From: Rhodobacter sp.
Lineage (GTDB): Bacteria; Pseudomonadota; Alphaproteobacteria; Rhodobacterales; Rhodobacteraceae
Assembly (NCBI GenBank): GCA_030066215.1
Contig: JASJCA010000035.1
Span: 1-64,000 of the forward strand
Reading direction: 5' to 3'
Length of the DNA: 64,000 bases
Shown: positions 1 through 32,947 of the stretch, piece after piece
Numbering within the stretch: position 1 is the stretch's first letter
How the letters are laid out: each line of letters begins with the position of its first letter
Notes under the pieces: generated by a model
Database searches by the model: none
What the model was told of the DNA's origin: nothing
Seen by the model: the letters and a program-made list of their open reading frames with translations, nothing else
Program-made: the position numbers and the translations under genes

Positions 1-162
1 AAACCCGCGGATCGCCACATCCGCCGCGACGCCGCCCTCGGTCCAGGGGGCGCGGTCGTCCTCGGCCTCGATCAGCGCGAATTCGTCGCTGTCCGGGCCG
101 AGGACGACCGCGCCCCCTGGACCGAGGGCGGCGTCGCGGCGGATGTGGCGATCCGCGGGTTT
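1..162. repeat. Foldback inverted repeat at window edge
   Basis: Bases 1-67 are an exact reverse complement of 96-162, leaving a 28-nt spacer (68-95). The right arm is the coding sequence of the following dioxygenase. The left arm is the same coding sequence on the opposite strand, and read in reverse through the spacer it continues as plausible dioxygenase sequence (…EFALIEAEDD…). A genuine gene would not carry its own reverse copy here, so this looks like a strand-switch chimera at a contig end rather than a biological element. Confidence 0.9.
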
Positions 163-639: not shown

Positions 640-1245
640 ATGGACCACTTTGCGGAAACCCCGGGCGACGGCCCGCTGGTCTTCACCTTTCACGGTACCG
701 GCGGGGACGAGACCCAGTTCCACGGCCTCGCCCGCCGGATCCTGCCCGACGCGCATGTGATCTCGCCCCGCGGCGAGGTGTCCGAGGCCGGCATGAACCG
801 CTTTTTCCGGCGCACCGGCGAGGGCGTCTACGACATGGGCGACCTGGCCTTGAGGACCGACGCGATGGCGGGGTTCGTCGCCGCGGCCAAGGCGCGGGTC
901 GGGGCCGATCGGGCGATCGGCTTCGGCTATTCCAACGGCGCCAATATCCTGGCCGCGGTGGCCTTCGCGCATCCCGGGCTTTTCACCGACATCGCGCTGC
1001 TGCACCCGCTGATCCCCTGGACCCCGGACCCCGCGCCGGGATTGGCCGGCCGGAACGTCCTGATCACCGCCGGCCGCCGCGACCCGATCTGCCCGGCGCC
1101 GATGACCGAGGCGCTGGCGGCTTGGGTCACGGCCCAGGGTGCCGCGCCCGAGCTGCACTGGCATCCCGGCGGCCACGAGGTGATCGCGAGCGAGATCGAG
1201 GCGCTCGCCGGGTTTCTCACCCGGCAGCCGGTGCGGGCGGGATAG
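640..1245 (+). CDS. Alpha/beta hydrolase, phospholipase/carboxylesterase family (MhqD-like)
   Basis: A cytoplasmic 201-residue serine hydrolase of the carboxylesterase/phospholipase family. An oxyanion HGTGGDE motif lies near residue 18, the nucleophile elbow GYSNGA has Ser98, Asp148 sits in GRRDPICP and His179 in GGHEV, so the triad is complete and in family order. There is no signal peptide. The ATG lies 3 nt after the dioxygenase stop, so the two are probably translated together. In Bacillus-type mhq operons such a hydrolase accompanies the dioxygenase in handling hydroquinones; the exact substrate here cannot be read from sequence. Confidence 0.8.
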   Translation: MDHFAETPGDGPLVFTFHGTGGDETQFHGLARRILPDAHVISPRGEVSEAGMNRFFRRTGEGVYDMGDLALRTDAMAGFVAAAKARVGADRAIGFGYSNGANILAAVAFAHPGLFTDIALLHPLIPWTPDPAPGLAGRNVLITAGRRDPICPAPMTEALAAWVTAQGAAPELHWHPGGHEVIASEIEALAGFLTRQPVRAG

Positions 1246-1300: not shown

Positions 1301-1472
1301 GGGCGCGGACTCAAGGCGCGCAGCGCCGCCGCGCCATCGCCGACCCGCCCCGGAGGGGTGGCGATTGGTCAACGTCAGCGCATCGCTTGATGCCCTACGG
1401 ACTCGGCCACCATAAAGCGCACCCGAACAAGCGTTGGGTCGCCAAACCGCGGGTCGGCGATGGCGCGGCTTC
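1301..1472 (+). repeat. Structured intergenic repeat, copy A
   Basis: First of six related intergenic elements (A-F) in this window. A small hairpin GGCGC-GCA-GCGCC (1315-1327) is followed by a perfect 21-bp stem whose arms are 1328-1348 and 1449-1469. The enclosed region carries the conserved CTACGGACTC and CCATAAAG blocks. No plausible gene occupies 1246-1566 apart from this element. It lies between the esterase gene and era. Arms and blocks match copies C and D closely, with covarying pairs in B and F. Function unknown: a structured RNA, a non-autonomous mobile element or a protein-binding hairpin are all possible. Confidence 0.85.
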
Positions 1473-4589: not shown

Positions 4590-4741
4590 GGTGCGGGTGC
4601 AGGCCGGTAATTCCAAGATGACCACCTATCCGCGGGCAGAGTCTTTCAGTGAAGTGCATTATCTTGGATTTGGGCAGTCGAAGTGATGGTGGTTATATCG
4701 GTCGGCGCTTGGTCTGGAGCCGCCGTTCGAGCGCCGCCCCG

Positions 4742-4885
4742 GGCACGGAGTCAAGGGGTGCAGCCCCGCCGTGCCCATCGCCAACCCGCTCGGGTGGGGT
4801 GGCGATTTGTCGACACCCGTGCACCGCTCGATGCCCTACGGACTCGACCACCATGAAGTGCCGCCGTTCAGAGGTCGGATAGGTG
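4742..4885 (+). repeat. Structured intergenic repeat, copy B (3' arm missing)
   Basis: The leading hairpin is GGGGT-GCA-GCCCC (4755-4767), a covarying version of GGCGC-GCA-GCGCC in copies A and E. It is followed by the 5' outer arm (GTGCCCATCGCCAACCCGC), inner arm GGGGTGGCGA and the CTACGGACTCGACCACCAT block. After GTTCAGAGGTCGG (to about 4878) the sequence diverges, so the 3' arms present in all other copies are absent. It lies between the convergent recO and rnc genes and takes up most of the 318-bp gap 4590-4907; nothing else is recognisable there. The broken end may mark a rearrangement breakpoint. Confidence 0.8.
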
Positions 4886-4907
4886 GGCCCAGCTTCTCGA
4901 TAGACGA

Positions 4908-5591
4908 TCACCCGCCGCCCAGCCGGTCCAACAGGATCCGGGCGGCCAACTGTTCGGCCTGCCGTTTCGACGGCGCCTTGCCCTGGGCCGACTGGCCACC
5001 CGAAAGCCGCGCCTCGATGGTGAACACCGGGGCGTGGTCGGGACCGTCGCGGGCGATTTCGACGTAGACCGGCGGCGGCTGTCCCTTGGACTGCGCCCAT
5101 TCCTGCAGCGCCGTCTTGGCGTCGCGGGCGTCGGCCTCGACCTGCGCAATCCGGTCGCCCCAGCTGCGCAGGATCACCGCCCGAGCGGCCTCGAACCCGG
5201 CGTCGAGATAGACCGCGGCAATCACCGCCTCCATCGCGTCCCCCAAGAGCGCTTGCTTGCGGCGGCCACCGGACATCATCTCGGACCGGCCCAACCGCAG
5301 AACGTCGCCGAGCTGCAGGTCTTGGGCCACGTCGGCGCAGGTTTCCTTGCGCACCAGCGCGTTGAAGCGCGGGGCAAGCTGGCCCTCGTTGGCGCCCGGG
5401 TCGTGGCCCAGAAGCGCTTCGGCCATCACCAGACCCAGCACCCGGTCGCCGAGGAACTCCAGCCGCTGGTTGTCGGGCCGGGTGGGCGAGGACATTGAAC
5501 CGTGCGTGAGGGCGCGCTGTAGGAGGTCGGGGTTTTCGAAGCGGTGCCCGAGCCGTTTGGCAAAGGCGGATAGGTCGGCCGACAGCTTCAA
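4908..5591 (-). CDS. rnc: Ribonuclease III
   Basis: RNase III, the double-strand-specific endoribonuclease that processes rRNA precursors. The catalytic signature NQRLEFLGD is at residues 41-49 (with R rather than S after it) and the second acidic cluster is in [18 protein letters not shown]-terminal dsRNA-binding domain ends in [20 protein letters not shown]. No ATG fits; a TTG at 5591 overlaps the lepB TGA (TTGA), gives 227 residues, the normal size, and implies translational coupling. The frame continues upstream without homology. It is the last gene of the acpS-lepB-rnc run and ends beside repeat copy B where era would be expected. Confidence 0.9.
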
Positions 5592-10786: not shown

Positions 10787-10969
10787 GGAGGCCTCCCGCA
10801 GAAGCTGATTCGCGTGGTTGCCGCAACGCTACATTGGGGCGGGGCACAAAGGAACGGCGGTCGACGGATTGTGACGTGAGGGCGGATGGCTGCCGAGGGT
10901 GTGGTGGGTCACGTAGGCGACGCGCCGGGAGGGACTATGCCTGCCCAAAACGTGGAGGTTCCGCTCCGG

Positions 10970-11141
10970 GCGCGGACTCAAGGCGCACAGCGCCGCCGCG
11001 CCATCGCCAACCCGCCCGGGTGGGGTGGCGATTGGTTGAGGCTCGCGCGCGGCTTGAAGTCCTACGGACTCCACAGCCATAAAGCGCCGCCGTTCAGAGG
11101 TCGGCTCGCCACCCCGCGGGTTGTCAATGGCGCGGCTCCGT
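10970..11141 (+). repeat. Structured intergenic repeat, copy C
   Basis: Contains hairpin GGCGC-ACA-GCGCC, outer-stem arms GCGCCATCGCCAACCCGC (5') and GCGGGTTGTCAATGGCGC (3'), inner arms GGGGTGGCGA and TCGCCACCCC, plus the AGTCCTACGGACT mini-hairpin, CATAAAG and GTTCAGAGGTCGG. Relative to copy A, a G-C pair in the outer stem is replaced by A-T on both sides; two mismatches are also present. It occupies the 419-bp gap 10787-11205 between two minus-strand genes; no other gene is supported there. Confidence 0.85.
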
Positions 11142-26594: not shown

Positions 26595-26768
26595 CTGGCG
26601 CGGAATCAAGGCGCGAAGCGCCGCCGCGCCATCGCCGACCCGCCCGGGTGGGGCGGCGATTGGTCGAAGCGCCCGCACCGCGTGACGTCCTACGGACTCG
26701 ACAGCCATTAAGTGCCACCGTGCAGAGGTCAGTTCGCCACCCCGCGGGTCGGCGATGGTGCGGCTTTT
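26595..26768 (+). repeat. Structured intergenic repeat, copy D
   Basis: Hairpin GGCGC-GAA-GCGCC (26610-26622) is followed by outer arms GCGCCATCGCCGACCCGC and GCGGGTCGGCGATGGTGC and inner arms GGGGCGGCGA and TCGCCACCCC. The loop region holds CGTCCTACGGACTCG and CCATTAAG. One G-U-type exchange (GGTGC) is tolerated in the stem. It lies in the 357-bp gap 26491-26847 between the peptidase start and the DUF4399 gene end; nothing else is recognised there. Confidence 0.85.
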
Positions 26769-28134: not shown

Positions 28135-28362
28135 GGGCGCAGGCTCCGGGCCAGACCCGGGGTGGCTTGCCGGGAATTCAGAGGCGCGCGCCCTGCCGCT
28201 TCGCGGCTGATCTCGTAAAGCGGCGGGGTCCGGCGAAACCGTCTCCCGCGCGGATTATCCCTCCGGCCAACGCCAACACATTTCTGTACCGTACAGGCGG
28301 AAGATGGGCAGGAATGCGATGACACGGATCGGTGTAGAGCGGACGTCGGTTCATTGCCCTCG

Positions 28363-28536
28363 GGAACGGAATCAAGGCGCGCAGCGCCGCCGTGCCCATC
28401 GCCAACCCGCCCCGGTGGGGTGGCGATTTGTCTAGCTTCGCAGATCGCTCGATGTCCTGCGGACTCGACCACCATAAAGTGCCGCCGATCAGAGGTCGGC
28501 TCGCCACCCCGCGGGTCGGCGACGGCCACGGCTCCC
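28363..28536 (+). repeat. Structured intergenic repeat, copy E
   Basis: Hairpin GGCGC-GCA-GCGCC, then 5' outer arm CCGTGCCCATCGCCAACCCG and 3' arm CGGGTCGGCGACGGCCACGG. The CCGTG/CACGG end pairs perfectly where other copies have CCGCG/CGCGG, a compensatory change, though other positions mismatch. Inner arms GGGGTGGCGA/TCGCCACCCC and the CATAAAG and ATCAGAGGTCGG blocks are intact. It sits between the binding-protein and permease genes of one transporter. Confidence 0.85.
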
Positions 28537-32682: not shown

Positions 32683-32739
32683 GGCGGGGGGTGGGACGGC
32701 AGACCTAGGGTTGCGGGTGAGTTGGTGCGACACCCCGGG

Positions 32740-32908
32740 CCGGGTTAATAGCGCCGCAGGCGCCCTGGCCCAGCGGCGGCCCGCCCCGGTGGGCTGCCGC
32801 TTTGGCCGCCACAAGCGCTCAGTTGATATGGAAGAGGTGCCTTGCTGCCATAAAGCACGCCGTTCATAGGTCGGTGCGGCATCCCGCGGGCCGCCGCTGG
32901 GCCGTGCG
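32740..32908 (+). repeat. Structured intergenic repeat, copy F (divergent but structure-conserved)
   Basis: The most diverged copy. The small hairpin is GCGCC-GCA-GGCGC (32751-32763), arms swapped relative to copies A and D yet still perfectly paired. The outer stem arms GGCCCAGCGGCGGCCCGC (32767-32784) and GCGGGCCGCCGCTGGGCC (32886-32903) differ from other copies at many positions but pair perfectly over 18 bp. CATAAAG and GTTCATAGGTCGG in the loop are retained. It lies in the 549-bp gap 32399-32947 together with the broken small gene. Confidence 0.8.
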
Positions 32909-32947
32909 GGCAACGTACATTTTCACCTCTGGCGCTCCAGCTCGCCT

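Follow-up and report, generated by a model that had tools for sequence, protein, structure and literature searches.

A dispersed ~170-nt repeat of Rhodobacteraceae with two mutually exclusive folds is probably a non-autonomous mobile DNA element

The window analysed here is a 64,000-nt stretch of contig C87 of a draft Rhodobacter sp. genome (G000, hereafter the home genome; 4.55 Mb, 211 contigs, 89% complete). It carries six copies of a repeat that a first-pass annotation had picked out by eye; all six were found by a covariance model at those places, and all lie on the plus strand. Copy A (1303–1471; model match 1300–1473, 186.9 bits) is a full element, its boundaries being set from copies of other genera. 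Copy B (4740–4878; model match 4740–4912, 94.6 bits) has lost its 3' arm, as read from the sequence; copies C (10967–11140), D (26595–26768) and E (28361–28536) scored 182.4, 183.8 and 178.7 bits, respectively. Copy F (32736–32910, 109.6 bits) belongs to a divergent subfamily with other members in the home genome. On this contig, a seventh copy (C87:65133) lies shortly beyond the end of the window. According to our own gene predictions, copy A lies between tandem genes that run in its own direction, copy B between convergent genes, and copies C, D, E and F each between two genes of the opposite strand. The start of an era-like gene (named from its motifs) was placed too early in these predictions, as a result of which copy A was wrongly counted as overlapping a gene. 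Among named records, those closest to the era-like product come from Rhodobacteraceae (73–84% identity). Copy E is flanked on both sides by remnants of a genus-specific outer inverted repeat, as judged from its flanks and a flank consensus. The contig itself starts with a perfect inverted repeat, the 67-nt arms of which are separated by 28 nt (window positions 1–162); this is probably a fold-back artefact of the assembly.

The unit is ~165–175 nt long, has the form GCNCGGAATCAAG...ATAAA...GCNCGGCT and contains five pairing strands, termed a–e; its left end is GCNCGGAATCAAG and its right end GCNCGGCT. In copy A, all on the plus strand, the 5' terminus is formed by strand a (GCGCGG, 1303–1308), which pairs with the start of strand b and has the same sequence as the 3' end of e. 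The a:b stem is capped by a small hairpin (GGCGC-GCA-GCGCC, 1315–1327), the pairing of which, counted over three pairs, was 97% Watson-Crick across 102 copies of the home genome. Folding and covariation indicate that strand b (1328–1348) pairs either with a and c, in local hairpins, or with e (1449–1469), the 3' arm of a 21-bp outer stem; likewise, strand c (GGGGTGGCGAT, 1355–1365) pairs locally with b or, in the inner stem, with strand d (1439–1448). The motif CATAAAG (1411–1417) contains ATAAA, the interior block with the strongest conservation across genera (columns 115–119 of the alignment described below, 1.7–2.0 bits). Two folds can thus be drawn. Fold 1 joins strand a to the start of b, with the small hairpin enclosed between them, and the middle of b to strand c. 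Fold 2 joins the full length of b to e (21 bp in copy A) and c to d. The folds compete for b and c and are therefore mutually exclusive. The anatomy as annotated earlier, with one outer and one inner stem, was incomplete in this respect, the strands of both stems also forming two local hairpins incompatible with the outer stem. Copy A folded better than 200 of 200 shuffled sequences (z −4.6; −98.9 kcal/mol), with fold 2 as the predicted structure of lowest energy, and the folding of copy F alone was unremarkable (z −1.1; 28 of 200 shuffles were equally good).

Inspection of the sequences bore out the small-hairpin variants listed earlier for copies A–F and the 18-bp outer stem of copy F, the pairing of which is perfect. 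The outer stem had been ascribed to all six copies, but copy B lacks it because its sequence diverges after position 4878. Of the loop blocks that had been called conserved, ATAAA was strongly conserved across genera and the others were not. CTACGGACTC is missing from copy F and has one mismatch in copy E, and CATAAAG has one mismatch each in copies B and D. The 10-mer CTACGGACTC alone was not significant in the window (six matches with at most one mismatch versus 2.72 expected; 5 of 100 shuffles held as many).

Conservation is concentrated in the pairing arms. In the home copies it was 0.91–0.94 for the arms, 0.81 for the interior and about 0.5 for the flanks, and in the copies of a sister species 0.95–0.97, 0.90 and about 0.74, respectively, against a background of about 0.41. 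Several aberrant forms were seen. Ten home copies of ~220 nt (L167:10388–10608 and nine others) carry a perfect hairpin (..GGTCCAGTGGACC..) inserted between strands b and c, with GTAG in its apical loop, as a repeat within a repeat. Three core-only members of the F subfamily (L228:10801, L180:13739, L179:7060) have neither the 5' hairpin nor the outer stem and have kept the inner c:d stem. Partial copies, that is, the 5' hairpin alone, a 74-nt mini form and the core-only F forms, resemble remnants or products of recombination.

Covariation was assessed in a diverse alignment of 102 copies from 72 sources (178 columns), picked from 113 model matches and three window copies after opposite-strand and duplicate rows had been left out. 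The test used a home-made script with 150 tree-preserving null alignments (smallest possible E of 0.003), in which a substitution is applied regardless of the state of its branch. Among 15,225 pairs of columns, 13 reached E<0.05, 10 of them complementary and three identical, in agreement with the earlier statement that the stems are kept by compensatory change. The complementary pairs were 9-34 in a:b, 39-66 in b:c, 66-141 in c:d, and 34-167, 37-164, 39-162, 44-157, 45-156, 46-155 and 50-151 in b:e; the identities (9=167, 39=141 and 66=162) follow from these. The covariation ties a:b, b:c, b:e and c:d, and hence both of the mutually exclusive folds have been kept. Watson-Crick pairs made up 95.5% of the cells for a:b, 96.7% for b:c, 99.0% for c:d (102 copies) and 84–93%, depending on the segment, for b:e, versus 25–33% in slid controls.

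The conclusion drawn in the first-pass annotation, that selection for pairing implies function, is nevertheless overstated, as a constraint imposed by mobility or templated correction of quasi-palindromes would also preserve complementarity; covariation over four strands is a caution that covariation by itself is no proof of RNA function. If templated correction rewrote several strands together, complementarity would be kept by mutation, with no need for selection. This would account for the concerted changes in four strands (for example, T/A to G/C at columns 39, 66, 141 and 162), in which mismatched intermediates are few, and for the rarity of wobble pairs. It would also fit the coupled changes in length of b and e: among 102 home copies, the number of C residues in b and of G residues in e was 3 and 3 in 51, 2 and 2 in 27, 3 and 2 in eight, and 2 and 3 in none (16 were unreadable). 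However, strand a is a direct and not an inverted repeat of the end of e, the a:b and c:d pairings (95.5 and 99.0%) are cleaner than b:e (84–93%), and a high-copy carrier (G019) has lost the end of e and kept a:b. We regard correction without selection as unlikely, although not negligible. In G019 the last part of e was gone from 20 of 21 readable GCGCGG-type copies, with a:b retained, and the end of e was kept in all three GCCCGG-type copies (six of 30 copies could not be read); the full outer stem is therefore not necessary for amplification.

Wobble pairs were scarce: over seven helix segments of the diverse set, G-U was found in 33 and C-A in 65 of 3738 cells. In 17 tRNAs from the same genome stretches, G-U made up 29 of 359 pairs, a comparison in which the brackets of the tRNA program may omit mismatches. 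This scarcity is atypical of RNA helices, although the argument is an indirect one. Inference of the strand from wobble asymmetry in b:e (C-A 80 versus G-U 12 in 102 home copies) was tried and dropped, composition being the likelier cause: strand e is G-rich and least constrained, and G-to-A changes in e give C-A, which most likely explains the excess.

The position of the copies relative to genes was determined from 132 home-genome copies, hand-pruned from 221 model matches by dropping opposite-strand and some weak matches. In gene-called stretches there were 126 copies of at least 100 nt, three of which overlap a predicted gene (copy A wrongly among them); two with one neighbour uncalled were dropped. 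The 121 classified copies comprised 60 between convergent genes, 37 tandem-sense, 20 tandem-antisense and four between divergent genes. The background of 619 gaps longer than 60 nt comprised 129 convergent, 337 tandem (both ways) and 153 divergent gaps; comparison of the home copies with the remaining gaps gave a chi-square of 89. In the sister species (n=31) the corresponding numbers were 22 convergent, three tandem-sense, five tandem-antisense and one divergent. Thus, copies mostly settle beside gene ends and are nearly absent from genes.

A location next to gene ends is also what one would expect of a cis-acting structured RNA in 3' untranslated regions, a terminator, protector of mRNA ends or strand-exchange switch that is copied because it is useful. 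Such an RNA would be in keeping with the covariation across three and four strands, the conserved, unpaired-looking blocks AATCAA and ATAAA, and the mild sense bias of the tandem copies in the home genome (37 versus 20, p 0.033). The sister species, however, showed no sense bias (3 versus 5), copies are not kept at orthologous sites, no neighbour gene is common (the largest cluster covers six sources), and G-U pairs (33 of 3738) are fewer than C-A mismatches (65) and far from the level in tRNAs (29 of 359). Given the scarce wobble pairs and the weak or absent sense bias, a cis-acting RNA role is unsupported, and we consider it improbable. Of the two possibilities named at the outset, structured RNA or mobile hairpin, the second is well supported and the first gained no support from the few wobbles and the inconsistent sense bias.

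Cis-regulation of one particular gene was rejected, since clusters of neighbour genes included at most six of 71 sources and a common site was not found; the largest cluster (6/71) encodes an ABC-type ATPase by our own reading. Copies near parE occurred in four sources, 110–914 nt away and at differing sites, and copies near the S10 operon, also in four sources, were of mixed types. In four carriers, copies lie in or near the rplW-rplB gap or upstream of rpsS (L286, L278, L271 and L295; our gene naming). These differ in subtype, so this may be a site of repeated insertion.

The covariance-model search proposed in the first-pass annotation yielded many genomic copies, both in the home genome and throughout the Rhodobacteraceae. 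The home genome has at least 150 copies (among the model matches listed, 201 to 93.5 bits), and an exact 5'-module pattern gave 128 matches versus none for the reversed control. In the family-wide search (E≤1e-4), for which the best seven candidates per genome were scored and the count is a lower bound, the model matched at least 156 of the 394 genomes sampled from this family (155 of 393 genera). A class-wide sample of 289 genomes, searched with stricter filters and the best nine candidates per genome, so that weak relatives elsewhere could escape, gave two matching genomes, both of the same family. An initial search of 40 other genomes had given 10 matches, all within the family, and none in 16 genomes of other families. 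Carriers include Roseovarius sp. MMSF_3359 and Antarcticimicrobium luteum, and Roseovarius confluentis holds a 76-nt mini form. Plasmids carry copies as well (pPABY4 and pPABY5 of Salipiger abyssi, one Pseudosulfitobacter and one Paroceanicella plasmid), with no annotated feature beneath these four matches. The 5' pattern was present in three contigs of viral collections, one of which (L247) gave a full model match; phage records gave no match to the repeat.

That copies have moved was deduced from a comparison of the home and sister species, which covers stretches of 1.18 Mb and 0.40 Mb. The copies cluster by species, with 101 of 102 home and 30 of 31 sister copies in pure clades, and the mean identity was 0.82 within the home species, 0.88 within the sister species and 0.69 between them. 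In the fetched stretches, five gaps hold a copy in one of the two species and none in its sister (home copies L214:14121, L171:4542, L242:9636 and L239:3576; sister copy L190:11098). Two gaps are occupied in both, with the same relative orientation in one (L192:9627/L235:8059, where by eye each copy is of its own species' type) and the opposite orientation in the other (L197:17293/L173:1698); an ancient shared insertion at these two gaps is conceivable. The intergenic DNA of the two species is too diverged for exact empty sites to be recognized. Target duplications were not detected in 20 copies of three other genera (G010, G168 and G401), in which no flanking repeat exceeded 7 nt and none was at a constant place; movement is therefore deduced from comparison and not from a clean junction. 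Even so, species-specific amplification and the filled and empty sites support the 'mobile hairpin' reading well. At one locus of G010 (L355, C3 about 1195990–1196050), an element is apparently interrupted by an inverted part of another, a nested insertion. In G019 many copies form tandem pairs ~260 nt apart (L387–L396), joined by a GTAGGGTGGG-type palindrome; this joint (GGTGGGTTGGAAACCCACCCTAC) resembles a GTAG REP.

In the home genus an outer inverted repeat (..TGGCCTGGAGCGGACGTT / AACGTCCGCTCCAGGCCA..) surrounds the core and is most pronounced in the sister species. Such a repeat would be expected of a classical MITE, a DDE transposon that has suffered a deletion, bears inverted repeats at its termini and depends on the transposase of its parent for movement. 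Yet the 20 copies from the three other genera have neither this inverted repeat nor target duplications, the flanks shared by the G019 copies are, by eye, not inverted, and flanks in general are much less conserved than the core. A MITE origin thus appears unlikely. As to the enzyme, PF01797 (Y1 transposase) was not detected in the home genome (89% complete) and was missing in 14 of 17 other carriers, the exceptions being G001, G016 and G116; PF00078 (reverse transcriptase) was present in two of 11 carriers tested, in one of them below the cut-off. Neither a transposase nor an autonomous parent element was found.

Overall, the data indicate that the repeat is probably (with a rough probability of 0.72) a non-autonomous mobile DNA element of ~165–175 bp, the single strand of which folds into hairpins, with an ecology like that of REP and ERIC sequences. 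Strand b can pair locally with a and c, or with e while c pairs with d, and lineages retain both options. The host or another element may provide an enzyme that recognizes the 5' hairpins in single-stranded DNA and moves the unit; the single-stranded step could take place, for instance, at the replication fork, insertion as single-stranded DNA being a guess. Insertions might persist chiefly beside gene ends because they do little harm there, or because they help to insulate converging transcripts. The arms would be conserved because copies that do not fold are not copied, a view that agrees with arms being conserved above the interior and flanks and with the survival of the 5' hairpins in G019.

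Several known systems resemble the repeat in part. REPINs consist of two inverted hairpins and a spacer, are moved by RAYTs and amplify within genomes; in contrast, the present unit has three strands plus a separate 5' hairpin, and the Y1 transposase is absent from the home genome and 14 of 17 other carriers. The ends of IS200/IS605 elements have no inverted termini, make no target duplication and pair with an internal strand, but most carriers tested here are without Y1 transposase, and the hairpin lengths differ. ERIC, Correia and similar repeats are intergenic, foldable, high-copy sequences of about 100–170 bp with inferred mobility; they are not known to share sequence or hosts with this repeat.

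Rfam 15 gave no match at the gathering score for the whole window, and at E≤5 the sole match in the copy A region was unrelated (1150–1206, minus strand, below the gathering score); the absence of an Rfam match, on which the case for novelty had been made to depend, thus holds for window and copy A region. A description of the repeat itself was not found in the open-licence literature searched. GTAG/CGTC REPs are palindromic units of 20–40 bp with an unpaired GTAG or CGTC tag, located mainly between unidirectional or convergent genes and downstream of coding regions (Di Nocera 2013, PMC3733652). These REPs and their dimers are, like the repeat, high-copy extragenic palindromes, often in inverted pairs able to fold apart or as one large stem; the repeat differs in being ~170 nt long and asymmetric, in the absence of end tags, and in having a third, 5' hairpin and the ATAAA interior (PMC3733652). 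The REP dimer is the nearest published kind found, although the repeat fails the size and tags that define REPs. A secondary effect on transcript ends, as is discussed for REPs (PMC3733652), may exist in addition. The Rhodobacterales motifs HRC-8-4, uORFC-8-2 and SAM/SAH are each tied to single genes (PMC8632094, PMC2864571) and, going by their description, differ from the repeat.

It is possible, though this is a tentative reading, that the repeat represents a new kind of mobile element. It would consist of a 170-nt DNA fold with two states, the termini of which are direct repeats that pair with the same internal guide strand; it would occur in at least two fifths of the sampled genera of its family, require no inverted termini, and owe its movement to an enzyme other than a Y1 transposase or a reverse transcriptase, the flip between local hairpins and long stem being part of the cycle of transposition or host exploitation. 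If the mobile-element reading is right, a common marine bacterial family harbours, at up to 150 or more copies per genome, a structured repeat that has no Rfam match and offers a natural series for studying the movement of such repeats where no transposase is obvious. Several contigs of the home genome (C37, C73, C118, C71 and C112) and of G001 (C14, C42, C3, C7, C17 and C18) end in or near a copy; short-read assemblies are therefore probably interrupted by the repeat.
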